Below, piece after piece: positions 21,350 to 60,953 of a stretch of 64,000 bases of DNA. This stretch comes from Capitulum mitella (lineage: Eukaryota > Arthropoda > Thecostraca > Pollicipedomorpha > Pollicipedidae). Position numbers and translations under genes: made by a program. The notes under the pieces are model-generated. The model was not told where the DNA came from. It worked only from the letters and a program-made list of their open reading frames with translations, and made no database searches. Every line of letters starts with the position of its first letter. Position 1 is the first letter of the stretch. The stretch spans positions 5,580,001-5,644,000 of the forward strand of contig CP099846.1 of the NCBI GenBank assembly GCA_030062745.1, in the 5' to 3' direction.

Positions 21350-23079
21350 ATGTATTTGGGTCAACTGGGCGCCGTGCGAACGGCGCTGCGCGAGCGCGGG
21401 ATCACTGCCATCACAGACGAGTGGCTGCAGGCGTGTCTGCAGCACGTGGCCGACTCGTGCCTGCAGCAGCGGCTCTCGCCGGCCGAGCTGCAGCGCCAGG
21501 TGATGCTCCAGTGGCTCGACACCGACCTGACCGCCATCGGAGCCGCCTCGCTGCCGGCCGGCCTGGCCGCCGCGCCGCGCGCCACCCTCCGCCAGCCGTG
21601 CGCCGTCCAGCTGGTGGACGCCGTGGACGTGGGCCAGCCGGCGTACGGCCAGCTGCTGCGGCTGCGCCGGCTCGACGTGGCGGACTCGGAGGTGACGAGC
21701 GAGCCGCGCGCCGGCGGCGAGCCGCGCCCCAGCCGTGCGCTCCGCCTGACCCTGACGGACGGCGTTCAGACGGTGACGGCACTGGAGACCGGGCCCGTGC
21801 CGGATCTGCGCGCCGACGCGCCGGCCGGCCAGAAGCTGCTGCTGCACGGCCCGCTCGAGTGCCGTCGCGGCGTGCTGCTGCTCACGGCCGATTCGGTCAG
21901 CGTGCTGGGCGGCTGCGTGGACGAGCTGCAGCGGCCCGACGCTCAGGAGCGACTCCTGGAGGCGCGCGTCGGCGCCGGCGCGGCGGCGGCGCGTCCCAGC
22001 CACATCGGCTACCGGAACGGTGTGGACGCGGCGGCCGGCCGCGCGCCGCCGACGCCGGCCGCCGGGCGCGACCCGTTTGACGACGGCATGGACGAGGCCG
22101 AACTGGCCGCCATCGCCATGCCGGACGACGACGTCGACGACGCCGTGCTGGCGGCCGCGGCGAGGCTGGAGGACGACGTGGAGCTGGAACCGGGCGGCGG
22201 CGCCCCGGCGTGGGAGCTGGCGGCGGAGCCGGCAGTCCCGAGCGAGCCGGGCTGGACCGGACCGAGCCATGCCGGACGAGGACGTCGAGCGAGCCGGACC
22301 GGACTGGACCGAGCCATACCGGATGACGACGTCGACGACGCCGTGCTGGCGGCCGCGGCGAGGCTGGAGTACGACGTCTTGGAGTTGGAGCCGGGCGGCG
22401 GCGGCCCGGCGTGGGAGGCGGCGGCGGAGCCGGCCGGCGGGAAGGAGGACGGAGCCGTGGAACTCGCTCGGGGCGGCGCCGGCCGCTGGCGACGGCAGGA
22501 CGCGCAGTCTCGGAGCTGCGCCGGGCCGGCCGGCGCCTGGTTTGTCCGGCTCGTCGGAGGCGTCGACCGGGCCGGGCCCGCAGCCGTCGGCCTCCTCGCT
22601 CCGTCCGCCGCCGACGTTTCGGCTGTCGCCGCCCGCCGAGGCGCCGCCGGGGCCGGAGCCGCCCGGCCGGCCCGCGCCCTTCGGGTTACCTGAGCGAGCT
22701 GCTGCCGGGCCGGCCGCTCACCGTGAAGGCGTTCATCATGACCCAGGTCAGCGGGCTGAGCACGGCCGGCGGCCGCTGGCGGCTCACCGTCAAGCTCAAC
22801 GACGGTACGCGCGCGGCGGAGGCGGCGGTGACGGACGGCGTGCTCCGCTCGCTGATCGGCCTGCCGGCCGCCGAGGCGGTCCGACTGCGCTCGGAGGGCC
22901 CGGAGGCGCGGCGGCGGCTCCGGGACGCCCTGTCCGCCGCCGAGCGGACCATCATCCGCCTCAACTGTCTGATGCGCCTGGAGGCGGGCGCCGGCGGCGA
23001 GCTGCCGGAGGTGACCGCCGTGCAGGAGGTGGACGGTCGGACCCTGGAGGCGCTGCGGCTGTGCTCGGCGCCGCCCTGA
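21350..23079 (+). CDS. RMI1: RecQ-mediated genome instability protein 1 homologue (two apparent frame changes)
   Basis: RMI1 is the OB-fold scaffold of the BLM-TOP3A-RMI dissolvasome, which dissolves double Holliday junctions in the nucleus. The N-terminal frame has the helical DUF1767-type segment (QVMLQWLDTDL), then the first OB fold with the family landmarks DVGQPAYGQLLRLR, SRALRLTLTDG, GPVPDL and RRGVLLLTADSVSVLGG. An acidic and Pro/Ser-rich linker follows. The C-terminal OB2 domain begins GYLSELLPGRPLTVKAF and includes VKLNDGTRAAEAAV and LNCLMRL. Start: the ATG at 21350 in a GCCGCC context. Stop: TGA at 23077-23079. The protein must move from the frame of 21350 to a second frame around 22440-22530, then to a third at the GGG of 22684-22688. 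Each step equals one extra base, so sequencing error in G-rich DNA or real decay are both possible; a spliced intron is less likely. Total about 575 residues, near the family's usual size. GC is far above the flanks. Confidence 0.88.
22121..22436 (+). repeat. In-frame internal duplication (198 bp) in RMI1 acidic region
   Basis: The segment starting at 22121, encoding PDDDVDDAVLAAAARLE, recurs from 22319. The offset is exactly 198 bp (66 codons), so the reading frame is kept. The following ELEPGGG-PAWE-AAEPA also matches. The DNA between the copies contains a further short GAGCCAT-CCGGA-GACGTCGA echo near 22264-22290, suggesting slippage in GC-rich sequence. Confidence 0.85.
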
Positions 23080-27862: not shown

Positions 27863-28917
27863 GGTCACCACGGGCGGCCTGGAGGTCGTAGCTGATGGTA
27901 CGGACAGTCAGGGGTCACCACGGGCGGCTGGAGGTCGTAGCTGATGGTACGGACAGTCAGGGGTCACCACGGGCGGTCGGAGGTCGCAGCTGATGGTACA
28001 GACTGTCAGGGGTCACCACGGGCGGCCGGAGGTCGTAGCTGATGGTACGGACAGTCAGGGATCGCCACGGGCGGCTGGAGGTCGCAGCTGATGGTACGGA
28101 CAGTCAGGGATCGCCACGGGCGGCCGGAGGTCGTAGCTGATGGTACGGACAGTCAGGGGTCACCACGGGCGGCTGGAGGTCGTAGCTGATGGTACGGACA
28201 GTCAGGGGTCACCACGGGCGGTCGGAGGTCGCAGATGATGGTACGGACAGTCAGGGGTCACCACGGGCGGCTGGAGGTCGTAGCTGATGGTACGGACAGT
28301 CAGGGGTCACCACGGGCGGCTGGAGGTCGTAGCTGATGGTACGGACAGTCAGGGGTCACCACGGGCGGTCGGAGGTCGCAGCTGATGGTACAGACTGTCA
28401 GGGGTCACCACGGGCGGCTGGAGGTCGCAGCTGATGGTACAGACAGTCAGGGATCGCCACGGGCGGCCGGAGGTCGTAGCTGATGGTACGGACAGTCAGG
28501 GATCGCCACGGGCGGCTGGAGGTCGCAGCTGATGGTACGGACAGTCAGGGATCGCCACGGGCGGCCGGAGGTCGTAGCTGATGGTACGGACAGTCAGGGG
28601 TCACCACGGGCGGCTGGAGGTCGTAGCTGATGGTACGGACAGTCAGGGGTCACCACGGGCGGTCGGAGGTCGCAGATGATGGTACGGACAGTCAGGGGTC
28701 ACCATGGGCGGTCGGAGGTCGCAGCTGATGGTACGGACAGTCAGGGGTCACCACGGGCGGCTGGAGGTCGCAGATGATGGTACGGACAGTCAGGGATCGC
28801 CACGGGCGGTCGGAGGTCGCAGATGATGGTACGGACAGTCAGGGGTCACCATGGGCGGTCGGAGGTCGCAGCTGATGGTACGGACAGTCAGGGGTCACCA
28901 CGGGCGGCCGGAGGTGG
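27863..28917 (+). repeat. 49-bp minisatellite, about 21 copies
   Basis: The unit is close to GGTCACCACGGGCGGCTGGA followed by GGTCGTAGCTGATGGTACGG and ACAGTCAGG (49 bp). Variants are mostly single-base (GTAG/GCAG, GGCTGG/GGCCGG/GGTCGG, GGTCACC/GATCGCC) and recur in blocks, so higher-order amplification of multi-unit groups is visible. The first unit keeps GGCCTGG, which fits an origin by amplification of the adjoining unique sequence. The period is not a multiple of three, so the array is not coding. Confidence 0.97.
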
Positions 28918-31900
28918 CAGGGTTGGTGTGTGGTCATTTACTGCCCGCAGAGGTCGAAACAGGCGTCTGCACGCCACCACATATCACAGGCACTACCATG
29001 CGATGCATAAGCTTGAGACAATAGGAAAATGATTAGGGTTGAATGGGAGTTGTATGATAAGGGGTTGGAAATTTTTAAAAACACAACAGTAGAGCCACGC
29101 GCTCCCAAAACTATGAAAGATTAGCGAGCACATAATTACTAAAAATATAATGCTACTTCGCACTGCACTGGGCCTATAGAACAATATCAAGAGGGGCCGG
29201 ATTTCACCGTCTTCTAGTGCTGCGGTTCATACATCACGCTCGCGTTCCTCAGTGCTGTGATGAAAGCAATATTTCAGCGCCGACATTCTTCATAGTCCAG
29301 GCAATGTTGCACTGGCCGCAAACCCATTTCACTCGCATAAACGGGTCAGCTTACGGACCCATTTTAGGACCGACAAGAGCTATTCCCCCTGAGAACACCC
29401 GTAAATCACCTTGTAAATGTGCAGGTGTGCGGCGCGTAATCGGACGTGGGTCACGCACCGGGGCGTTCTGACGGCAGATCGTGACCCGCGCAGCTGTGCG
29501 CCTGCACCGGCCTCACGACGTCGTTGGCGGAGCAGCCATCATCCCACATCGTCAACTGCCCGACGCCGCCCCACCGCCATCAGCTGGCGGCCGGCAGCTG
29601 AGCCCCGCCGTGGTCCGGTCGGCTGCTGTGCCGTCTGAGCCGAGACCGGGTCGGGAGCCGTGCGACGTCGCACTGTGCGTTCTCCAGTCTGCCCCGCCCC
29701 CTGACGAAACTGAGCTCGCACGACCCTGGCCCGTAGGCCGTACGTACGAGGCTGCAGGCGGAATGAGTTTTACCTCGAAAACAGGGAAAATCGAGCTGAG
29801 CGCCCCGGCCATAACGATATTCCAGAATCATAACTACCATCCACGTGGGACCGACTCGCGCATTTTCGCATACGCAATATAACTCACCCAGTATAACTCA
29901 GTTCGTTGCGAGTTTTGTATTTTCACGTGCAATACGTTATATTGTATGATTTTTGCCGCCAGACTATTCCAAGACGATGTAACGGCGTTTGCAGTTTATT
30001 AATTTATTTATCTATGTATTTGTTGGTGCTCTTCAATCACTCTCGACAGCATGCTGCCGTACGTCACCGATAACCTCCCCGCAAGTGCGACGATTCTCAA
30101 CGGCTGCCCGTAGTTGCACATCTGTTGCTGCGGCGGCTCGACGCGTGCTGAACTCGGCGTCCAGATAACGCCGGGCTGACCGCGGTGAGGCCACTCGTCT
30201 TCCCGTTCCAGTCACCGCCGAACGGTCCGGACCGACCGGTAGGGCTCCTCTAGCCGACACCAAGCCACCTGCACCGTCGGTCAATATCCGACGCCGGCAC
30301 GTGGCCGCCAGCTCACGTGTGCCTGCCACGGGACGGCGTGCCGGCCGCGTGCCGAGAGCGCAGCCTGCCGCGAGCCGGGTGGAGAAGTGGGGGCGACCCG
30401 GCCGGCGGTGAGTGCGCCCCAGGCACTAGTGCGGCGCGGCAGTGGCTGGCCGGTCGCTCCCGCTATCCGCTGCCTGATTAAATGGCTCTGTCGTGCTTTT
30501 AAGGTGCTGTAAAGTCATCGGACTAGGGATGTGGAAGGTGGCCTGGCATAAATGGAGTGCCATCATCATCGACAAGCCAGCGGTGCAGTACCGGCGGACT
30601 GTCACTGGTTTCTGGAGACGCCTGCGTCATCCAGCAGGAGGCTGGCTCGCCGGACTTGCACTGGCTCAATCGCAGGTAGATACTCATGGGACAAGGGAAC
30701 ACAATGCGGCAGGGGACTGCGACGAATAAAAACAAAGTTCCTTGCGGTCATTAGGCTAATGAAAAAATATCACTCAGCTTATCTGACACGCAACAGTATT
30801 ATATCAGATATTATACAACAATGTTTGATTGCCATTGCAGACAGCCCAGAACAGTCCTGTTTATAATTCTGCCCGTGCTTATGGTTCATGCAAAACTTGC
30901 ACCATCTGACAATGCTGAAGGGGGAATGATGATATGCTTCCTCGTCTTTTGCATGCCAGCGCAATCCCTGAATGGTGTCCCGGGCCGCTTTCGAGGCAGC
31001 TGGCGCCTCATAACGAGGAGCGCGCTCTACCATCGTGCGGTAATTCAAGAGAGTCAGTGCAAAGAGACAGTCCAGCCCTATTTCGGGAAGATCACAGGTT
31101 GAGGCAATTTCTGGGTGTCTCGGCTCACTGGCTCTGGATAAGGAGTCTAATAACAAGAGCATTCCGCTAGATATTATGCAGCGGTGTAACAATTAGGCCT
31201 TGAAAACTTCCACAAACGGAAACTCACCGAGGTAAATGTCAGGTCAGTTTTCGGCATCTGTTTAAGTTTTTCAACAACACTCCTCGTCTGAAAGTATCGA
31301 TTTTCTGGTAGCTGCCGCTGCAAGCTCGCTTGCAATGAATGTCGCGGCGGAGGCGCAGCTGTTGTTGCGGGCTACAAGAGCTGCAAGAATGCGGCTAATT
31401 ACCCCGCATTTGCTGCCGGGCAAACGGTCAGGGCCGGGTGCCGGCGTCAAGTCCCGGCGCGCCCGTCCGGTTTTTGGGCTGCCCGGCCAGGAGGAATAAA
31501 GTCCGATGGCGGGACGGCCGTAGCCAGCCATACCAGCTCGTAAAGCGGACCACTGCCGTACCTGTTCCATGATGTACCTGAGGCCATCGCTTACTACGCC
31601 GAACTACTACGTCCTACGTCCAACTACTACTACTACGTCCAACGGTGCTGCAGATGTGACGCAGATTCCCGAGTGAAAACAGCAGCGCGTTGGCACAGAA
31701 AAAACGAGACGATGCAAGAGAACGCATAACAAGTTGGAGACCGCCTAACATTCTCATGATTTCGTGCCTGATCAACCGACTGACTGGAATACGCAATGCC
31801 CAGGTGTAAGTCAAATACGCAATGCCCCGCCAATTTTTTCAACCATGCAGTTTGTCAAGAACATGAAATGCGACTTCCCACAATTAGAATAGCATCCCTT

Positions 31901-41730: not shown

Positions 41731-44700
41731 GCGTCCGTGTCGGCGCCGGCGCAGCGGCGCAGACCGCGGCCAGCGGGGTGATGAGCGTTTCTGGCCTGTT
41801 GCGATAGGTATGCTTGTCTTAGGTCCTGGACAAATTCCAACTCGTCAGTCGGCAAGAAATCACCAGAAGAAATACATATGACGTACCTTTTAACGTTATA
41901 GTGGCAATGTAAAGGATATTGGAACATAAACATATTCTTTGCTAGTGACGACGGATTACTTCTGGTTATAGCCTTCAGACGGAGGCGGCGGCCTCATCAA
42001 TTTGCAGACGGTTTTGATGAGGTCTATTCCTGATCAGCAATGGTTCACCGTCGCCACCACGAACAGGGCAGCCGGGTGCGCGGATCGAACAGAAATAGAA
42101 GCGCGGGCGTGAGGAAGACAGCATACATTGGGACACCGGGTCTCTGAGAACAGCTATGCTTTTCCCATCGCTCCGTTCAGTTTTCAGCGGTAGTTTGTGG
42201 CTACGCCCGTGAGGCTTTTCTTGGGGGAAAATCCCAGGATGCGCCCTGGGAATGCTCCCGCGCAATGCCAAAACCAGCACTTGCAACAAGAATTGTTCCG
42301 TGGGTAAACTCTTTCAGTGACGTTTCATGTCCCGTTATCTTCAGCGCGCAAGCACAGCATAAGCGATAGGGCCGTTCATTGCAACGTTGAGTTACCAAAC
42401 AGCGCATGCGCGCAGTATGTGCGCGCATAGCAACGCTGGCAGCTGGCCAAATCAATGGCGTGCATGACAGTGATGCGCAGCGTTGCACACGGCGAACCCG
42501 AGTGTTCCGGTCCGCTGCAGTGGACAGAGGCCGGCCGGACGCCTCTGGTCAGCTATGCGGGACAGGGCGGTAGCGCTGACGTATACCGACGCAGCCATGA
42601 CCGGAAGTCGAGTTGGCTGCGGCGGCAGCGGCGCCGCCCACCGGGCCTCCCGGCCGCGGAGGCGAACTTCAGGACCGCTCTCTGCCTCCATCACGACTGC
42701 TGCGCCACACCCGGCGGAGACGACTCAGAGACGCTGCCCATAGAGCGCAGAATCCCGTCCGCTGAGCGCGGCGCAACGCCTTTGAGGGATCGCAGCTTGT
42801 GCGGACGGGCCAGGAAGCAGCGAGACCGGGTCAGAGAAGCGACGCCAGGCACCATGCCCTGGGTCCGGTTCATGGAGGCCCCCCTAAGGACGCAGCACAA
42901 TGAAGGCCTCGCCACGCCGATGGCAGTCGCTGTCGGCATGAGGAACGGCCGAATCCGTTTGCCAAACGGCAAACGGAACAGCACCTACCGTTTTACCAGA
43001 CACATTTTTCGGGTCATTTTTATCCCCCTCTGTCGATACCTAGACCTCGCACAACGAGTCGACACAATTTGACTGTCCCTTTCCGTAAAGAACACACCTA
43101 AAAGTTTTTCGACAAAGAAATAACTTAAAAGAGAAATTACTAACCGCATATATTTCACGAATGAAACGCTCACATACATGTTAGGGTAAAGGCAATCAGA
43201 TTGGTTATTTACAAACTGAGGCTTTCCCGCGAGTCGTTTGCAGGAACGACGCTCCTCCTCGTAATCGGCACATTGAATATGTACAAACATGAGCTGTACT
43301 ATATTTGTAGCTATGAATCCTCAAATGGGTGATGTGTTCCATTTATTGATGCTTTCCTGTAAACCTTCCTGCCGAGTCCGAGTGAGAACACAACAGGAGC
43401 AAAACTGCAAATCTGCACGGGGTTTAACCATGTCACCAGTTTAACCATAACCATTTAAGTTTTCCAAAAAATGTGTGAGGGGCCGAAACTCAATTTTCTT
43501 TCAAGACAAAAATGTCGTCTCACACATCCCTGACGTCAGTATTATGACGGACTCTAACCACTGGTGGTTCGTTCCATCTTCTATATGATTTTTGAGTAAC
43601 GTGTGTCTGTCATGCACAGGAACGTCCAGCAAGGAGCACGTTACCATGATTTATGACAATCCGCGCCCCAAAGCCCAACACAAACGGTCATCCCAAAGTT
43701 CAAACTGCCTCGAAACTGATACTCTTTGAAACTGGGCAACTCAGTGTTCATAAACCTTGCTTAACGAAGTAAGCGGCAAGCCCTAGTCTATATACTATTT
43801 GAGTAACGTGTGTCTGTCTTTCTGTCTTTCCGTCTGTCTGTCTGTCGACAAATCTTTGCTCCGGCCCAGGGCCCAAACAGATCGGCAGATCGGCACGTGC
43901 CGTGCACCGTTCGAAAGGCCTCGCGCGCCACCAGAAAATCCGCTAATTTTCGTCGCGCTGCGACCCGCCGTTGGCGCGTTCCAAGCCCTCCAAGGGTGCT
44001 TTTTATTCATAGGGAGAACACGTAAAACGGGAAACGCAAACAGCGCCAAACAGTGGCGTAGCCAGCATTTTTTCTCGGGGAGGTCCTGGAGGATAAGGGG
44101 GCCCCAACGCTGAGGGGCCCTTAAATACTTCAGGGGCCCCATGGCCAGCGATGTCGTTTTGTGTAAATGATTTGGGGGAAAGGGGGGAAAGGGCAAATCA
44201 GTTGAGGGGGCTTCACAACCTAGCCTCCCCAAATTTGACTTTCTCAACGGATTTAGGGCACTTTGTTTTGACGACGGGAGTTGATCTAAAAGGAAAGATT
44301 TATATAGGATTTTGGTTTGTTATCATATATATCTACATATATATATATGTATCTGCATTATCTACATATATATTAGTAAAGCTAGGAAGTAGACCGTAAC
44401 GTATACATTGTTAAGAACTACAGACTTGGCACTGATGATCTTCTTTGGTGTGGCTTCCATTGTTCGTATAAGTCGTCTCGTTTAGAATGAGTGTTCATTA
44501 AAAACGTTGGCAATATCCTTTGTATTATAAAGAAAAATCAAAAAATCATATTTTATTATCGATCTAAAGTTTCTTCTACACATGGGACATCTTCAGACAT
44601 TAGTATGGCGTCAATGACATTTGGTTTAAATTTGAAAAATAAACCACGCGGTTAGTAAAAACATGGATCTTCTGATTCGCGCACAGAATTAAACATGGAC

Positions 44701-45040
44701 AAGCAGTGCTGAAGCAAGATACGATTGGTTGGCTAGTTATTGGGGCTTAGGGACGCACCGACTACAGGGTCATTCGGCGCCCAGAAACAAGATACGAAAC
44801 ATCAGTACAGCACCTATTCACATATTCATAGTCTATGCTCTAGTGGCGGCCCTTCAGACAACTGCAAGTCCCACGCGCGTTAACCTGGCGGTCAATTCGT
44901 GGGTACAATATTCATGGGATATCCCGAATGAATATCGTCTCGAGAGCAGCTAGGCGCCGTTTATCCGTTGCCTTCGCCAGGATCTTCATGTTCGAGGTGA
45001 TGGTGCGAGGAGTAAAGTGTTCACAGTGGCGTGGTTCTGT

Positions 45041-45096
45041 GTATATATATATATACATATATATATGCAAATATATATATATATATATATATATAT
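45041..45096. repeat. (TA)n-rich microsatellite
   Basis: Three TA runs interrupted by CA and GCAA. A shorter TA/CA tract lies at 44320-44375. Confidence 0.9.
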
Positions 45097-45239
45097 CGCG
45101 TTTACCCAAAGCGTCGTTAGACTTGTTGTGGTGCCATCGAGGAGAGGAACCTTGTAGTTTCCAGAAAATCCCTAAAACATTCAGCAAAAATTGTTAAACC
45201 ACGCTAGGGCATTTTTAAGAATTATTCCGAAAATACGAT

Positions 45240-46800
45240 GATCAAGGGCCCACTTAGAGAGGTAAAGGCTCACAAAAACCAATGGGCCCTCTAAATAAGT
45301 TAAAGACGGGGCCTTTCTCGTGGTCTTAAGGATCCTCGTTGAATTCATCTCGAGGGCTCATTGGAGTTTTTCGTGGAACCCTCAAGCTTTTTAAGAGGGC
45401 CTTTGGGCGGATTTAGGGCACTTTAGGGAGCCAACAAACACTTCCTTGTCCGGCTTAAAACTACATTCCTGAATGTGAGCAATCTGAAGGTACTGAAGGC
45501 CCTCTCAAAGGTTTAAGGGGTCCACAAACATTTCAGTGGGTCCTCTAGATGAATCCAAACAGACTTTTTCGGGTGCCTCTTCTTGAATGTATATCAAGTG
45601 TCCATATGAGTTTTTTGGGGCCTCTCAACGTTTAAGGGGTGCCCTTGATATTTTCAGAGGGCCCATGAAATATTTACTCATCCGGTTCACCCTTTCCAGA
45701 ATACATGAGGTGCCTCTGAAAATATAAAGGACATTTTGGATAAATTTAAGAAGGGGTCTCCGAACGCCACGGAGGTCCCTTCCTTTCATTAAAGAACCAT
45801 CGAGTTTGTGTGAAACCTCAAACCTCTTGAAAAGCCTCTTAATGTTTTCGGAGGGCGTCTCAGACATAACTCCTGTCCTGAATGCTTCAGAAACGTTTCA
45901 AAATACTTATGGGCCTCTCAGATGTTTGAGGGCCGCACAAAAACTCCACTGAGCCCTCGAGAGGAATTCAGTGAGGGTCCCTGAGATTTTAGGGAGTCAT
46001 TCCTTGGATTCATCTAAAGGGCCTGTGTAGTTTTTCTGTGGGGCTGTCGATCTTTTCACGGAGTCCTTGATATTTCCAAACAGGCCTCAAGCATTTTCTC
46101 GTCCGGTGTATCCTTTCTATGCCTGAGGTCCCCTATTAAAATATCAAGGCCCTGAAAATGAATTCAAAGATTTCGTTGCAAGGAATTTGAAGGAATTTTG
46201 TTTCAAACGAATTCTTTTCACCTTACGGAGGGGCCCCTCCTTGAACTAGTTTAAAGGGTCATTTGGAATTTTGTGGGTTCTCAAACATTTCGAGAAGCCC
46301 GTTAATATCTCAAGAGGGCCTCTAAAATAATGCCTCATCCGGTTCAAAACTTCCTTTCTGAATGTTTGGAGCATCTAAAAAATTTGGGGGCGCCGCAAAA
46401 AATTAATGTGTCCTCGAGATGAATTCAAACGGGGACTCGGGCCTGGAACAGGGTCATTCTTTCAGTTCATCGAAGGGATGCAGAAGAATTTGTTGGACTC
46501 CTCGAGTTTTCGAGAGGTCTTGGTATTATCAGAGGGTATCTCAAACATTTTCTCAGGACCCCTCAATCATTTCCTCGTTGATTTGAAATCCTCTACTCCT
46601 TGTTCGAGGAGGTCCCTAAGAATGTTTGAGGAGGGCCCCTAAAACCGGAGTAGAGCCCTCTGGATCCTTCTAGAGGATCCTCTTGAATTCATCCGGAGGG
46701 TCCATGGAGTATGGTGCTGGGTTCTCAAGCTTTTGAGAGTGCCCTCACTATTTTAAGAAAGCCCCAAACTTCCAGGAGAGCTTCTCTTAATCAGACGAGG
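45240..46800. repeat. Degenerate ~30-40-bp repeats filling the hAT-type element
   Basis: Recurring pieces such as GAGGGCCTCT, AATTCATCT-GAGGG-CCT, GAGTTTTTCGTGG and TCATCCGGTTCA recur with spacing of roughly 30-40 bp within larger cycles of about 190-240 bp. The Pro/Ser/Phe-rich frames that result are artefacts. Confidence 0.6.
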
Positions 46801-47506
46801 AAATCTTTCCGTAACTTGGATTTGGTTATTGACTAGTACCGTTTGAAAAAGTTGCGGAATATTTCATCAAGTTTAAATGTCATTTCAATCATGGGTCCGG
46901 CATACCACTGTGGGCCCCACTTCAAGACTGGGGGAGCTAAAATCATCATTGGAGGGGGCTGAAATGAACACTGAGGGGAGGTGCTTACACCCGCTCAAGA
47001 GAAAATGAAGTCCAAGTCCATGTTTAGAACGCTATGGATACTTGGCAAGAACCTGTTTTCTTCCCCTAATAACCAAACTTTCTTTTGAGAAAGCTGGCCT
47101 GGATTATCTACATGCAGTGTTCTGGCCACTGGAACTCCATTAATGGTAGAACTTCCACTTTTTCTGCATCTGAATGGTCAGGGAGCTGGCCAGGCGTCAA
47201 CCTGCCTACATGTCCACTGAACTACTTTGATGATCGCCTAGTTATGCCACTACGATGCCCGGCTCTGGCATCCAGCAGCCATTTCAGGGCAGAGTTGTCT
47301 TTCCTGCTAGGAGCTGCCCGGCAGGAAAGGCATCTTGGAAAGTTCCCAATGTTCACTGACCTTTCCATGTCAGTGGACATTGGGGCCAGTTAGGACATGC
47401 CTGGGGCCCGGCCCAGGGGACTCCCTTTCCATCCCAAGAACTCCTAGAGTGGGGCTGGTAATACCCCTAGGTCTTTTGGTTAACGTTACGTCATTGGGGT
47501 TCCGTT

Positions 47507-48000
47507 CCCGACACACTTACGCCATCCATGGCAAGAGGACCTTTGCTGGGTGGCGGCTCCTTTGCAGAGCATCATTTCCTGTCCTCGCATATGCCTTTTG
47601 GCAGGTGTATGCCGGGGGGCCCTTACCTGTTCCAGGGATACCTTTCAGGGGGCACGCCGCTACTTGCCAGACAGGTCTTTGCCTGGGGTCTGGAGCCCTT
47701 TGCGTTGGAGTGGAATTACCTTTCTCAGCCATGGGAGCACCTTTAGGCAAATGCCATGGGGCCCTCGTGGGCCCTTCCCGACACACCGACACCATCCCAA
47801 GGCAGGACCTTTCCTGGCTGGCGGCTTCTTTGCAGAGAAGCATCCTTGCACCCGGTCAGAGGGCATCCTACTATCTTCCAGAGGGGTCTTTGCCCAGGGT
47901 CTGGGGCCCTTTTCGGGGTAGTGGACCTGTCTTTCCCGGCCAAGGGGCCCCTTTAGGCCAATGCCAGGGGGTCCATCAAGAAATTTTGGGGATCCCAGGA
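47507..48000 (+). repeat. ~270-bp imperfect tandem duplication inside the hAT-type element
   Basis: CCCGACACAC starts at 47507 and again at 47777. Both are followed in order by CCATCC, GGACCTTT, TGGCGGCT, TTTGCAGAG, a GGTCTTTGCC block and GGTCTGG-GCCC, then CACCTTTAGGC or CCCCTTTAGGC and AATGCCA. Confidence 0.8.
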
Positions 48001-51000
48001 CTCCCTGTCTACGCTACTGGCGCCAAACATCGTTTCGGTTCCGGCGAGTTTTCGTGGCAACCGCGGGTCGGATCAGTTCGAAACGCACCAACTTGAAACG
48101 AGAATTAATCGGGCAATCGTGTGGCACATAGCACGTTTCAATGCGCGCGGCACGCGCCACGCGCAAGTGGCGGCAATGTGAAGAAGCTGTTTCTGGGCGT
48201 TTTCAGAATCGGGTGTGACGCTGGAGATCCAGAGATCGCAGAGACTCGGAAGAAGCATCACGGTGGAGCTCCGTGTACCGTCTTTGATTCGCACCGGAAG
48301 CTCAAAGGTTTCGAGCCACAGTTCCGGTGCCACACGGCCTGGAAGCAGACGATGTACTCATTCTCGAACTCCTTATCGATTTTACTGCAATATCGCGCAG
48401 AGGCTTTTTACTTTTCGGAATGAAAATCGTATCAGCGCGTAGCTTCGTCTTTTGTGCTCCATATCAACCCAAAAAATTGTATTTTTTGTGGTATGTTTGT
48501 AATAGATCATTTAATGAGGTCCTGCGAATCTTAACGCGAATTTATCGCGAAAAAAATTCATGCGAGCTGCAGCCACAGGCACAGGTTAAAGCCAAACAAA
48601 ATGCGCACGCGTTCCTTAAACCGTGGGATCCACTCAGTTAAAAACTTGGCACACTTCGTTGTCAAAGTTGTCTCGGTTTCAGAAGGCTGTCTTGGCCATC
48701 CAGGGACAGTAACTCGAAATGGATATTCTCTCAAAAGAAACTGAACATCACATCGCATAGCATCCTGTGTGCCTTTAAAGATAATGCTCATGGGCAAGGA
48801 AAAGAGCAAAATGGCTATTTTCCATGTCTTTCACCTTTTTTTGCCGGACGCAGAAACAGTCGCGAGGATCAGATCATCAAAGCGGAATGCCAAATAAAAT
48901 CAAGTGCATTCAGAAACGGGGTCTGCCATGCACAGAAGCGTCCAGCAAGGAGCACGTTACCGTCAGTTATGAAAATCCGTGCCCCAAAGCCCATCACAAA
49001 CGGTCATCCCATAGTTCAAACTGCTTCGTAACTGATACTATTTGAAACTGGACAGTTCAGTGTTCATGGAGCTTGCTTAACCAAATAAACGGCAAGACCT
49101 AGTCTATATGCTATTTGAGTAACATGTGTCTGTCTGTCTTTCTGTCTTTCTGTCTATCTGTCGGCAAATATTTGCTTCGGTCCAGGGCCCAAGCGGACAG
49201 ACGGGTTGGCACGTACGCGGACCGTTCGAAAGGTCTCGCGGGCCGCCAGAAAATCCGCTAATTTTCGCCGCGCTGGGACCCGTCGTTGGTGCGCGCCGCG
49301 CGCTTGAAGGATAATTATTTAGCCCGTAGGAATAGCATGTAAAAGGGGAAACGCAAAAGGCGTCAAACATTGTTTCGGTTCCGATGAGTTTTCTCGGCAA
49401 CCACGGGTCGGATCGGCTCGAAACGCGTCAACTTCGAATGACAATTGAACGGACAATCGCGTGGCACAAAACACGTGTCAATGCGCGCGGCAAGCGCCAC
49501 GGGCAAGCGACGGGAATTTGAAAAGGCGGTTTCCGGACGTTTTTCGGAATTGGGTGTAGTGCTGGCGATCCAAAGATCGCCGCGACTCCGAAAAAGCATC
49601 ACGGTGTAGCTCCGTGCACCGTCTTTCGTTCGTACCAGCAGACTAAAAGATCAAAGGTTTTGACCCACGTTTCGGGTGTCGCGCCGCCTGGAAGCAGCCG
49701 ATGCACTCATCCTCTAACCCCATATCGATTCCACTTCAGTATCGCGTGGAAACTTTTGACTTTGCGATGAAAGTCACATCAGCGCTTAGCCTGTTCTTTT
49801 GTGCTCTATATCAACCCCAAAAAATCATCGTATGTTGTTGCAGTATGTCTGTAATAGATTATTTGGTAAAGTCCTACATGTCTTAACGGGGATTCATTGC
49901 GAAAAAGAATTCATGTCGGCAGCAGTCACTGGCTCAAGTCCCAGTCAAATAAAATGAATAGCGCACGCGCGGTTCAAAATCCCGGATTCGCGAGGTAAAA
50001 AACTCAGCACCGTTCGCTGTCAAAGTTGTCTCGGTTTCAGAAGGTTGTCTTGACCTCCCAAAGACAGTGGCTCGAAATGGGTATCCTCTCAAAAGAAACT
50101 GGACAGCGTATCGCATAGCGTTCCGTGTACGCTGAATAAGAATGGTCATGGGCAAGGAGGAAGATGGCTGCTCTCCACGTTTTTCACCTTTTTTGTGAGA
50201 CGGAGGGACCATCATCAAAATCGGATCATGAAAACGAGGTGCAAAATAAAATGAAGGGTATTTGGAAACGGGGTCTGTCATGCACAAGAGCGTCCAGCAA
50301 GAAGCACGTCACCGCCATTTATGACCATCCGCGGTCAAAAGCCAAAAACCAACCAAAGATCCCAAATGTCGGACTGCTCTGAAACCTAAACTCTTGGAAC
50401 CCGGGCAGCTCACCGTTCATGAACCTTGCTTAATGAAGTAAGCGGCAAACCCTAGTCTATATACTATATGAGTAACATATGTCTGTCTGTCCTTCTGTCT
50501 CTGTGTCTGTCTACAAATCTTTGCTCAGGTCCACCAATCCATCGTCCAAACGGATCGACAGATCGGCACGTGCCGTGCACCGTTTACGTAAAACCGGAAA
50601 CGCAAACGGCGTCAAAGACCGTTTCGGCTCCGACGAGTTTTCTCGGGAACCACGGGCCGGATTGGCTCGAAACACACCAGCTCGAATCAAGAATTCAGCG
50701 GGCAATCGCGTGAAACACAGCACGTTTCCTTGCACTCGGTAAGTGCCACACGCAAACGATGGCAATGTGAAAAAAACTGTTCTGGGCGTTTTTCAGGATT
50801 GGGTGTGGTGCTGGCGATCCAGAGATCGCATCGACTCGGAAAAAGCATCACGATGGTGCTTCGTGTACCGTCTTTCGTTCGTATCGGCAGTCCAAGGGCT
50901 TCTGCTTACTGTTCGGGCGCCACGACGCCTGGAAGCAGACGATGCACTCATTTCCGAACTCCTGATCGATCTCACTACGATATGGCATAGAGGTTCTCGA

Positions 51001-54000
51001 CTTTCTGCAATGAAAATCACATCGACGTGTTGCCCGTTTTTTTCGTGCTTCACATCAGCTCAAGAAATCACCTTTTTTGTTGTGGTATGTTTGTTTTAGA
51101 CTACTTGGTAAACTCCTGCAGGCCTTACAGCGAATTGCTCGCAAAAAAGGATTTATGCCGGCAGCAGTCACTGGCTCAAGTCACAGCCCTATAAAATGAA
51201 TAGCGCACTCGCGGCTGAAAACCTAGGATCCGTCAGACAAAAAACACCCGGCACTATTCGTGGTTAAGGCAGCCCTGTTTTCAGAAGGCTGCCTTGACCA
51301 CCCAGGGTCAGGAACCCGAAATGCGTATTCTCTCAAAAGAAATCGGACAGCATATCGCAAAGCATCCTGTTCGCGTTTAAGGGGAACGCTCACGGGAAAA
51401 GAGCAAAATGGCCGTTTTCCATCTTTTCTGCCTTTCTGTGTGGAACGTCCAGGCAATCATAAAGACCAGATCATCAAAGTGAGACACAAAATAAAATCAA
51501 GTGCAATCAGAAATGAGGCTTGCCATGCACAGGAGCATCAAGCAAGGAGCATTTTACCGTCATTTGTGACAATCCGCGTCTCAAAGCTCAAAACCAACCA
51601 AAGACCCCAAAGGTCAGAGTGTTTCGAAACCGCTACATTTTAAAATTGGACAGTTCAGTGTTCATGAACCTAGCTTAACGAAGTAATCAGCAAGCCCTAT
51701 TAGTCTATATACTATTTGAGTAACGTGTGTCTGTCTTTCTGTTTGTCTGTATATCTGTCGTCAAATCTTTGCTCCGGTCCAGGGCCAGACAAATCGGCGG
51801 GTCGGCATGTGCCTCACACCGTTCGAAAGGTCTCGCGCCACCAGAAAATCCGTGCATTTTTGTGGCGCTGTGATCCGTCGTTGGCGCGTGTCGTGAGCTT
51901 GAAGGCAGATATTTATCCCATAGGGATAACACGGAATACGGGAAACGCAAACAGCGCCAAACATCGTTTCGGTTCTGACGACTTTTCTCTGCAGCCACGG
52001 GTTGCATCGGCTCCAAACGTATCAACTTGGAAAGACAACTGAAGGGGAAACCACATGGCACACAGCACGTTTCAATGTGCGAGGCACGTGCCACGCGCAA
52101 GCGATGACAATGTGAAAAAACTGTTTTTGAACAATTCAGGATTGGGTGTGATGCTGGCGATCCAGAGATCGCAGCGATTCGGAAAAAGCGACGCGATGTA
52201 GCTCCGTGTACAGTCTTTCGTTCGTGCCGGAAGCCCAAGTTTTTGGCTCACGGTTCGAGTGCCACGCCGCCTGGAAGCAGACGATGCACTCATTCTCGAA
52301 CCCCATATCTATTCCACTTCAATATCACGTAGAAGCCTTTGACTTTTTGAAATGACAATCACATCAGCGTGAAGCCTGTCCTATTATGTTCCATATCAAC
52401 CCAAAACAACACCGCATTTTGCTGTGGTATGTCCATAATAGGTCGATTGATAAAGTCCTGCATGTTCTAACCCGGATCTATCGTGAAAAAAAACTCATGC
52501 CAGCTGCAATCATTGACTTAAGCCGTAGCCAAATACATGAATAGCGCACGCGCGGCTCCGAACCTAGGATCCACGTAGTCAAAAACTCGGCACATTTCGC
52601 CATCAAAGTAAACTTTGTTTCAGAGGGCTGTCTTGCCCACCGAGGAACGGTTAATCAAGATCGGTATCTTCCCAAAAGAGAAAAACACATGGCGTAGCGA
52701 CCTGTGTGCGCATAAAAATAATGTGCATGTGCCGTTCATAGGCAAAGGGCAGACTGATCATTCCCCATGTTTTCACATTTTGTGTCGGACGTTGAGACAT
52801 TCACCGAGATCAGATGGTCAAAGCGAAATATAAAACAAAATGAAGGGCGTTTAGAAATGTGGTGTGTCATTCATAGGAGCGTCCAGCAAGAATCATGTCA
52901 CGGCCATTTATGACAATCCACGCCCCAAGGCCCAAAACCGCTATCAACGATCGCAAATGCTTTGAAACCTAAACTCTTGGAAACCGGGCAGTTCAGCGTT
53001 CATGAACCTTGCTTAGCAGCGTAAGCGGCAAGCCCTAGTCTGTGTGCTATTTGAGTAACGTGTGTCTGTCTGTCTTTCCGTCTTTCTGTCTGTCTGTCGA
53101 CAAATCTTTGCTCCGGTCCAGAGCCCAAACGGATTGACAGATCAGGACGTGCCATGAAGCATTCGGAAGATCTCGCAGGCCACCAGAGAATCCGCCAATC
53201 TTCGTCGCGCTGCGACCCGTCGTTGGCGCGTACCGCGTTTCAAGGCTGATTTTTCGCCCATAGGAAAAGCACGTAAAACGGGAAACAAAAACACCGTCAA
53301 ACATTGCTTCGGCTCCGACGAGTTTTCTCGGCAACCAGGGGTCAGATCGTCTCGAAACGCGTCAATTTAGAATGGCTATTGGACGGGAGATCGCGTGGCA
53401 CACAGCACGTTTCATTGCGCATGGCACGTACCACGCGCAAGCGACGGTAATGTGAAAATGCCATTTCTAGGCGTTTGTCAGGATTGTGTGTGGTGCTGGC
53501 GATCCAGAGATCGCAGCGACTCGGAAAAAGCATCACGGTATAGCTTCGTGTACCGCCTTTCGTTCAAACCGAAAGCCCAGCGGTTCCGGCTCACGGTTTG
53601 AGTGCCGTCCCGCCTGAAAGCATACGATTCACTGATTCTCGAACCCCTTATCGACTCCACCTGATATTGCACAGAGGCTCTTGACTTTTTGCAATGAAAA
53701 TCACATTGACGTGTAGCCCGTTCTTTTGAGCTCCCTGTCAGCTTATAAAATCGTCGTATTTTGTTGTAGTATGTCTGCAATAGGTCGTTTGGTAAAGTCC
53801 TGAATGTCCTAACGCGGATTTATCGCGAAAAGAACAGCATGTCTTACCGGTCCAGTTCACAGTCAAATGAAATGATTAGTGCACGCGTGGCTCAAAACCT
53901 AGGATCCGCATAGCCAAAAAGTCGCACATTTCGTTGTCAAATAAGTCTTGGTCTCAGGGGTTGTCTTCGTCACCCAAGGACAGTGTGGACCTGGCAGTGT

Positions 54001-55498
54001 GGTCAGGACAGTGGACAGTGACTACACTCGCCACAAAGCCCGAATCCGTTCAAAGATCACAAAGGCCAGATTGCTTCGAAAATGATTCTTTTCGAAACAG
54101 CACATTTCAGTGTTCATGAACCTAGCTTTACGACGTAAGCGGCAAGCCCTAGCCTATATGCTGTTTGAGTAATGTGTGTCTGTCTTTCTGTTTGTCTTTC
54201 TGTCTGTCTGTCTGTCTGTCGGCAAATATTTGCTCCGTTCCAGAGCCCTTATGGACTGACGGATCGGGACGTGCCGTGCACCGTTCGAAAGGTCTCGCGC
54301 GCCACCACAAAATCCGCTTATTTTCGTGGCGTTGTGACCCGTCGTTGGTGCATGCCGCGCCCTTCAAGACTGGTTTTTCGCTACAGGAATAACACGTAAA
54401 ACGGGAGACGCAAACAGCGTCAAACATCGTTTCGGCTCCGACGAGTTTTCACGGCAACCACGGGTCGGATCACCTCGAAACGCGTCAACTTTGAATGATA
54501 ACTGAACAGGCAATCGCGTGGCATACATTACGTTTCAACGCGCGAGGCACGTGCCATGCGCAAGCGATGGCAATGTGAAAAAGCTTTCAGACGTTTTTTG
54601 AGGATTGGGTGTGGTACTGGCGATCCAGATATTGCAGCGACTCGAAAAAAAAAACACCTTTGTGTTGCTTCATGTACGGTCTTTCGTTCGGACAGGGAGC
54701 CCAAATGCTTCGCCCCACGTTTCGGGCGCTATGCCGCATAGAAACAGACGACGGACTCATTATCGAACCTCTTATCAATTCCACTTCAATATCGCATACA
54801 TGCTTTTGGCCTTTTGCAGTGAAAAGCACATCATGGTGTAGCCCATTCTTTTGCGCTCCTTGTCAACCTACAAAATAATCGTATTTTATTGCAGTATGTC
54901 TGCAATAGAACATATGCCAAAGTCCCGCATCTCCTAACGCGGACCTGTCACGAAAAGTAATCCATGGCGGCTGCAATCCCTGGCTGTAGTTACAGCCAAA
55001 TAAATGAATAGCGCGGCCCAAAACCTGTGATTCGCGTAGTAAAATACTTACACATTCCGTTGTCAAATTAATCTTAGTTCCAGAAGGCTGTCATGGTCAC
55101 CGAGGAACAATAACTCGAAATTGATGTTCTCTGAAAAGAAACTGAACAGCATATCGTTTAGCGTACTGTGTGCGTTTAAGAGGCATGCCCATGGTCAAAG
55201 AGGAAGATGGCTATTTGCCATGTTTTTTACCTTCTGTATCGGGCGTCGAGGCAGCCACCAAGATCGGGTGATCAAAGAGAAATGCAAAATAATATCAAGT
55301 TCGTGTAGAAACTGGGTCTGCCACGCGCAGTAACTTCCAGGAAGGAGCACGCTACCGTCATTTAGGACATTTAACGTCCCAAAACCTAAAACTAGCCAAG
55401 GATTTCAAAGATAGGACTGTTTCCAAGCTGATACTTTTTGGAAACTGGGCAATTCATTGTTTACAAACCTTGCTTAACGAAATAAACAGCGAGCCTAG

Positions 55499-56831
55499 TC
55501 TTGATCTATCTACATCTTTTGATCAGAAAAGACAGTCTGTGATGGACAGTAGTCTATAGAGGCCAGCGTTTCTAGCAAGACGAAAATCTTTCTATTTAAA
55601 TACAGTTGGCATTCATGTCAACCATACATTTGAACCAAGAAAACATAACGAAAGCCTCAGATTAGCTTTATGTTTGGCATAATATTGAGTGTAATCCATG
55701 AAAAGCAACGTATATGTTTACTTTTGTTCTTAGGACACATTAAGTCTAGCCAAAGTTGGTGGGGCCTGATTCCTGAAAAATCCAATGGACTTGAGAGGTA
55801 CAAAAGGGACAAAACTGGCACCTTCCAGGCACGATGCGGCATAACAATTCAAAATCTACCTACATTCCATTTCCAGATATTCCGAACATGAACCAGCCGC
55901 ACATTCTGAAATGGATATGAAGAAGTGGAAGGTCAAAAACAAAACAAAAGACAGATTGTAGTAAAAATGTGACCGGCACCTTTTAAGCCACGCGATGAAA
56001 CGTCATCCTAGAGGATGATGAGTGTTTAACTCAGTTATGAATAGCAGAATGCTGTCTGACGAGTTAACACATGTAACATGTAGCATGCAACACATTAGCC
56101 GTGAATGGGACGTATTTTTCGTCACAGCATGTGTCGTACCACAGTGATGCTTTGGTCGCCAGAATGGATACCTACGCTGAGGTGCCAAAGATCGTTCTTT
56201 GTACCTGCCTTTCCTGAACGAAACGTCTGTGGTAAACCATGACAGCAGTCAACACGAGACAAGACGTTACATTAAGCCAGAGGAGTGGTCACATCAGTCT
56301 GTTAAATTTCGGGTGCCATATAGTATGCGTATACCTGAGATACACAAATGCTGTAGATAACGTATGCTACGAATCAGAACAACAAACAAGAAAATGGCGG
56401 ACCCACACGATTTTCAGATGACTTCAGGTAGTTTTAAAAGATCTTCATAGTAACGGTCAGAAATGCCTTGAAGCAGTCATAACAACGGCTCATCAACTAT
56501 GACTCAACAATGTGATTACGAGTGCAAGGTCTTTTGCCGTCCCGCTGACTGCTCTTGCCCCCTGGCCTGTGCAAAAAGTCTCTATCATTTATTTTCAGAC
56601 ATCGCCTGTGTGCACACCTCCGTGACATAGAACTATTTCTGCCGATCTGAGTTCTGGCCAAAACTTCCACAAACGCGACTAGAAGCCGGCGAATGACCCT
56701 CGCCTCGCAGCATGGAAGACAAATTTGATTTTTAACGCATCATTTTGGTGCCAGTAAAGCTAATACACTACCATGTTGACTTTCAAGCAATAAAGATGGC
56801 CGGCAATGCCACTCGTCTTATCAGCGACGGG

Positions 56832-59734: not shown

Positions 59735-59980
59735 AGGAGGACCTGACACCTAGGAGCAGGACAGCGCACAATCAGGAGGACCTGACACCTGGGCGCAGGA
59801 CAGCGCACGATCAGCAGGACCTGACACCTGGGCGCAGGACAGCGCACGATCAGGAGGACCTGACACCTGGGCGCAGGACAGCGCACAATCAGGAGGACCT
59901 GACACCTGGGCGCAGGACAGCGCACAATCAGGAGGACCTGACACCTGGGCGCAGGACAGCGCACGATCAGGAGGACCTGG
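59735..59980 (+). repeat. 39-bp minisatellite, about 6 copies
   Basis: The unit reads GGAGGACCTGACACCTGGGC followed by GCAGGACAGCGCACAATCA (39 bp). Copies are nearly identical, with AATCA/GATCA and AGGAGG/AGCAGG variants. The period is a multiple of three, so long repetitive frames appear on the minus strand (RCPAPRCQVLLIV). Translation is not supported otherwise. Confidence 0.96.
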
Positions 59981-60450: not shown

Positions 60451-60953
60451 ATGTGACAGGCCGGTCTGGTCCCTGATGACAGAGATGACAGGTCGGTGCG
60501 GTCCCTGATGACAGGCCGATGCGGTCCCTGGTGACAGGCGGTGCGGTCCCTGATGACAGGCCGGTGTGGTCCCAGATGACAGGCGGTGTGGTCCCTGATG
60601 ACAGGCCACCCTGATGACACGCGGTACGATCCCTGATGACAGGCCGATGTGGTCCTCGATGACAGTCCGGTGCGGTCCCTGATGACACGCGGTGCGGTGC
60701 CAGATGACAGGCCGTTGCGGTCCCAGATGACAGGAAGGCGCGGTCCCTGATGGCAGGCGGGCGCGGTCCCTGATGACAGGCGGGCGCGGTCCCTGATGGC
60801 AGGTGGGCGCGGTCCCTGATGGCAGGTGGGCGCGGTTCCTGATGGCAGGTGGGCGCGGTCCCTGATGGCAGGTGGGCGCGGTCCCTGATGGCAGGTGGGC
60901 GCGGTCCCTGATGGCAGGTGGGCGCGGTCCCTGATGGCAGGCGGGCGCGGTCG
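60451..60953 (+). repeat. 23-bp minisatellite, about 21 copies
   Basis: The unit is close to TGATGACAGGCCGGTGCGGT plus CCC (23 bp). In the right half it homogenises to TGATGGCAGGTGGGCGCGGT plus CCC. Indels are common in the left half. Three units equal 23 codons, which explains the long His/Pro/Arg-rich minus-strand frames of about 260 codons here (60215-61080). Confidence 0.96.

Follow-up and report, generated by a model that had tools for sequence, protein, structure and literature searches.

The window, a 64,000-nucleotide stretch of Capitulum mitella DNA, contains seven units arranged head to tail at 43580-55498, all on the plus strand and each running from a TCTATAT-like 5′ end to a CTAG-like 3′ end (Table 1). 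An earlier note on this DNA had described a seven-unit array whose outer edges are exact element ends. Both points held, as all seven units were located and the array starts at a 5′ end and stops at a 3′ end. The last 3′ end, where one base is deleted, was taken directly from the sequence. Over aligned stretches, different units are ~71-82% identical. Four of the six inner junctions read CTAG/TCT (slashes mark element boundaries), one has three extra bases (unit 3) and one reads CTAG/CCT (unit 6); the note had regarded the 5′ TC and 3′ CTAG as common to the units, and exceptions include the CC start of unit 6 and the CTATTAG end of unit 3. A GTCT microsatellite run begins near the 5′ end, from about base 22, a feature shared with Helentrons and HINEs and not diagnostic. 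The 3′ stem-loop is present but weak, with a mean folding energy of -2.8 compared to -1.7 for shuffled sequences (71 family 3′ ends). The claim that the hairpin had drifted most in the last unit holds weakly, since unit 6 has the base deletion but units 1, 3 and 4 also have four mismatches each. The transposon that splits unit 1 is flanked by an 8-bp duplication, GCGCCAAA, at 44043-44050 and 48020-48027, and we take it to be hAT-like by its termini only. Fragments of its first ~1.25 kb recur across many contigs of the genome. Elsewhere the window holds minisatellites and an open reading frame that is likely a host gene.

Table 1. Features of the window, with positions counted from its first nucleotide.
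Feature	Position	Strand	Description
Open reading frame	21350-22693		RMI1 N-terminal domains (PF08585, E 2.4e-30)
Minisatellite	27863-28920		49-bp unit, 21.6 copies, 93% matches
Host 5′ flank	43570-43579	+	Ends CCATCT; T precedes the array, the usual A being absent
Unit 0	43580-43786	+	207 bp; internally deleted, 5′ end joined to last 175 bp
Unit 1	43787-49102	+	Full copy, split by another transposon
Inserted transposon in unit 1	44051-48019		Non-Helitron; short inverted ends CAGTGGCGTAG / CTACGCTACTG
Unit 2	49103-50455	+	1353 bp
Unit 3	50456-51703	+	3′ end is CTATTAG
Unit 4	51704-53038	+	1335 bp
Unit 5	53039-54152	+	1114 bp; interior partly missing
Unit 6	54153-55498	+	Begins CC; one base deleted in 3′ end
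Host 3′ flank	55499-55512	+	TCTTGATCTATCTA: T, then TCTATCT block at target-motif spacing
Minisatellite	59735-59979
Minisatellite	60484-60952

The end patterns of the family were matched to the 477-Mb genome (16 contigs) at up to three mismatches. The 5′ pattern gave 107 matches and the 3′ pattern 216, compared to none for the reversed-pattern controls of both ends. Besides TC, some family copies start with CC, TT, TG or AC. Solo copies with the same ends, for which the earlier note had suggested a search, were found elsewhere: L041, L044, L045, L046 and L047 have A before and T after, and L043 has G before and T after. In the loci read, copies did not begin and end at arbitrary phases of the unit, nor were they confined to satellite arrays. 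To look for empty sites, the 150-base flanks on either side of nine insertions were joined and matched to the genome. For three (L043, L046 and L047), matches at 80-84% identity span nearly the whole joined sequence and differ from it in length slightly or not at all (298 bases against 298 in one case), and the joined flanks of L045 gave one partial match through the join. The five other joined sites, including the window array, found their own flanks only, or matches short of the join, among the matches listed. Thus, a paralogous empty site exists for three family copies, but none was found for the window array among these matches.

The family is a canonical, non-autonomous Helitron. It has the features of Helitron1, namely a 5′ TC, a 3′ CTRR (CTAG) with an upstream palindrome, and insertion at A^T without duplication. 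Helentrons and HINEs (DINE-1-like) were also considered. The target at host junctions is A^T, not TT, and subterminal inverted repeats were not found, there being no exact inverted match of at least 8 bp between the two terminal 150-bp stretches of the consensus; the Helentron label that the note had allowed for therefore fails. At two loci, family 5′ ends are paired on one strand, 90 bp apart (C6:30039642 and 30039732) and 129 bp apart (C4:8229860 and 8229989), an arrangement like that described in fungal Helitrons with multiple 5′ termini. L060 and L061 (C4:2.93 and 2.96 Mb) are opposite-strand near-duplicates with the same Helitron units.

No intact full-length element with family ends was found, but one Rep-bearing member was, a decayed 3083-bp element at C7:10764735-10767817. 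It carries the first ~830 and the last ~310 bases of the family on either side of decayed Helitron coding sequence, of which 57 residues match Helitron_like_N (PF14214, E 6e-10) and contain GLPHVHILLW, presumably the HUH motif. Directly joined to it upstream is a copy with ordinary unit ends, read outside ~1.2 kb of its interior. A profile search gave 33 PF14214 matches in the genome. At the other Rep loci, family ends were absent within the DNA read (mostly 1.5 kb either side, somewhat further at C15 and C3), and the similarity of the C15 stretch to two units is at chance level only. At L056 (C15:3298300-3308200), two Rep stretches occupy one strand, 5.69 kb apart, within repeats that are 98.7% identical over 3428 bp; these may be two tandem copies of a different, younger Helitron family. 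The C7 coding piece has its nearest relatives (43-58% identity) at C1:20664158-20670625, as two inverted copies ~6 kb apart that are possible remains of the autonomous lineage.

Direct joining of copies occurs on the scale of the whole family. Upstream DNA was read for 100 of the 107 five-prime ends; 52 abut a family 3′ end with no gap, three have 3-6 bp between, one has a weak, unclear match, and 44 have host flanks. All 44 were kept, among them one inverted-duplicate pair (C4) and two cases in which a second 5′ end closely follows a first, so that the flank counted as host may derive from the family. Downstream DNA was read for 66 of 100 listed 3′ ends (216 matches in total). Among 20 further 3′ ends taken in list order, a family 5′ end comes next in 14, as judged by eye.

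The relatedness of array neighbours was then compared with that of other units. From 53 paired units, the 47 full-length ones were used for a tree, in which no two array mates are sisters; wider clades are shared by some, such as window units 4 and 5 (support 0.80) and both L062 units (0.85). A distance test used 76 units with at least 300 columns, with one duplicated locus set aside. Divergence was 0.225 between adjacent units (39 pairs) compared to 0.222 between units of different arrays (2489 pairs). The nearest relative was an array mate for none of the 63 units with a comparable mate, against 1.9 expected by chance. For the six full units of the window array, a single clade was rejected, as it lowered the log-likelihood by 202 units (p-AU 3.6e-8; quick tree of 52 rows).

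These results bear on how the arrays arose. In rolling-circle read-through, copying of one element would run past the termination signal several times and the resulting concatemer would insert in one piece, which yields exact head-to-tail units and exact outer edges. Excerpts of PMC4067079 propose this for bat and silkworm tandem Helitrons, and excerpts of PMC5876387 cite tandem arrays as support for rolling circle. Here, however, array neighbours are not each other's closest relatives, and rolling-circle amplification, one of two origins suggested in the note, is therefore unsupported. At C7, moreover, the copy with ordinary unit ends leads directly into the 3.1-kb Rep-bearing member. We regard read-through as improbable. 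Dissimilar neighbours with exact joins could also be spread by multimer transposition, in which existing mixed arrays or dimers move as blocks to new places. However, first-unit distances do not predict second-unit distances (Spearman -0.01, 748 comparisons of 41 neighbour pairs), although the power of this test is limited because only 16 comparisons have either distance below 0.15, and none has both. This origin appears quite improbable too. Head-to-tail repeats of about 1.3 kb would be consistent with ordinary satellite DNA or with ancient tandem duplication by unequal exchange, but the solo copies with exact ends at A^T, the array edges at unit ends and the empty sites argue against both, as do the unlike neighbours; locally amplified, arbitrary-phase units were not what we observed, and we give this reading very little credence. 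Collectively, since neighbours are not nearest relatives, the window clade is rejected and pairs have not spread together, the comparisons suggest that the array units most likely arrived separately, in support of the note's other proposal, repeated insertion at the same end.

We next considered the sites at which copies land in host DNA. In the 44 host 5′ flanks, A is found at -1 in 33 (75%, p 4.9e-12 against 25%), C at -2 in 64%, T at -2 in 27%, and A or T at -3 in 86%; binomial tests were run for A at -1 and C at -2. On the 3′ side, seven of 37 non-tandem flanks were dropped (five with family homology further on and two duplicates), and six host flanks from the 20 further 3′ ends, read once the motif had been noticed, were added to the remaining 30. 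The window 3′ flank was shifted by one base, the profile having overrun a deletion. T is found at +1 in 30 of the 36 flanks. Because C is found at +2 in just 8%, these flanks are not simply other Helitron 5′ ends. The best match to the element's own ACTATTT at offsets 5-9 averaged 4.78 of 7, compared to 3.08 for 6172 A^T sites in the window (p 9e-14) and 3.18 for 507 more distal sites of these flanks; the p-value from the first 30 flanks is optimistic because the offsets were picked after inspecting them. The six later flanks alone gave a mean of 4.33 (p 0.012 and 0.019), with CTA itself in only one. Overall, CTA was in place in 18 of 36 host flanks, compared to 339 of 6172 window A^T sites (5.5%) and 24 of 507 outer-flank sites. 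Shuffled flanks averaged 3.71, placing the real flanks at z 7.2, and ACTATTT ranked first among its 105 anagrams. Flanks with T (30) match best at offsets 5, 6 and 7. The preferred target pattern appears to be WYA^T followed, after 5-7 bases, by a CTA(T/A)TT-like block; the element's own left end reads A/T-CTATATA-CTATTT.

Based on these observations, we consider it likely that the array is a stack of independent canonical Helitron insertions at the boundary between a host A and a resident 5′ TC, with left-end-like targets favoured. A Helitron inserted as A/TC...CTAG/T would leave an A^T site at its own left edge, and a second copy entering there would produce A/TC...CTAG/TC...CTAG/T, with CTAG set directly against TC and without an A at the inner junction. 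The host A would stay at the outer left and the host T at the outer right, which would explain why the array edges are always exact ends. Since such an insertion leaves no inner A, it would also answer an argument reported in the available text of PMC2267711, by which independently inserted units should have an A between them. Counting against the model, T takes the place of the expected A in the left flank of the window array. The transposase apparently prefers targets resembling its own left end, and would therefore strike this boundary often; the boundary is probably chosen for the likeness of the resident front end to the family's preferred landing site.

Sequence likeness may not be the whole cause. 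At one exact spacing, the motif occurs 6,468 times in the genome, compared to 1,297 for a reversed control, and many of the listed occurrences fall in one repeat family. Set against the 216 detectable 3′ ends, this means that resident ends are favoured roughly 37-fold, even when every host insertion is charged to motif sites. More than this block must therefore guide target choice. The short motif being unable alone to give the observed preference, insertion at resident 5′ ends could be independent yet have another cause, such as an active left end lying in open chromatin or exposing single-stranded DNA, with the host-site motif a minor AT-rich bias; Helraiser likewise prefers AT-rich 3′ flanks, according to excerpts of PMC4778049. 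However, the best-matching word is ACTATTT itself, with its C, which scores above shuffles and all 104 alternative anagrams. We consider such a cause unlikely, though deserving of serious weight. Under serial self-targeted insertion, the remaining preference might come from longer left-end recognition, or from a Rep that is already nicking the resident.

Serial insertion at the left edge predicts that the 5′ unit is youngest. This gradient was not seen, either in adjacent pairs (18 of 40, p 0.64) or between first and last units (12 of 25). A preliminary comparison restricted to full units had appeared to support the model. Neighbours sequenced only in part and the sampling of copies by their ends blunt the test. 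Such sampling could also mask the gradient, as could insertions into inner junctions or brief activity of the family; alternatively, the model may be incomplete.

One Rep recognition step may serve both left-end cutting and target choice. IS200/IS605 elements transpose through single-strand HUH chemistry, and their target rule ties site specificity to the left end. The family described here would work like them by analogy; they are prokaryotic and without a helicase. Their site specificity is mentioned in excerpts of PMC5876387.

Other Helitrons share parts of this pattern, as far as excerpts of the cited papers describe them. In a maize pair (PMC2267711), CTAG is joined directly to TC, as here, and two dissimilar elements are explained by consecutive insertion, with insertion between a host A and a resident T given as one option. 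That was one pair, whereas here 52-55 of 100 five-prime ends read lie in joins; this scale, the relatedness tests and a target motif resembling the left end are what the present analysis adds. The tandem Helitrons of bat and silkworm (PMC4067079, PMC5876387) also form head-to-tail arrays, ascribed to a bypassed termination signal or rolling circle, whereas the units here behave as separate insertions. Helraiser/Helibat (PMC4778049) resembles the present family in its TC...CTAG ends, palindrome, A^T target without duplication, target preference strongest on the 3′ flank and AT-rich stretch near the left cleavage site; what is reported there is AT-richness, whereas here the block is CTA(T/A)TT-like and resembles the left end. 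For FoHeli of Fusarium and relatives (PMC5148889), self-insertion has been proposed, multiple 5′ termini occur and three tandem copies are known in Metarhizium acridum, but the ends are non-canonical and the target is another. Among the open-licence PMC papers listed, we recognised no account of a target motif that looks like a Helitron's left end.

Although roughly half of the 5′ ends read are joined to another copy, the units behave like separate insertions, and tandem arrangement by itself is therefore no evidence of rolling-circle copying. Tentatively, we suggest that Rep might read one code both to cut the left end and to choose the target, the left end being its own best landing site. 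If true, Helitron arrays of this head-to-tail kind would in general document serial self-targeting rather than rolling-circle concatemers, and Helraiser, with its bias towards AT-rich targets, would be another family following the same rule. The resemblance of target to left end provides a concrete, testable rule for Helitron site choice, and self-targeting would allow dispersed transposons to assemble arrays resembling satellites.
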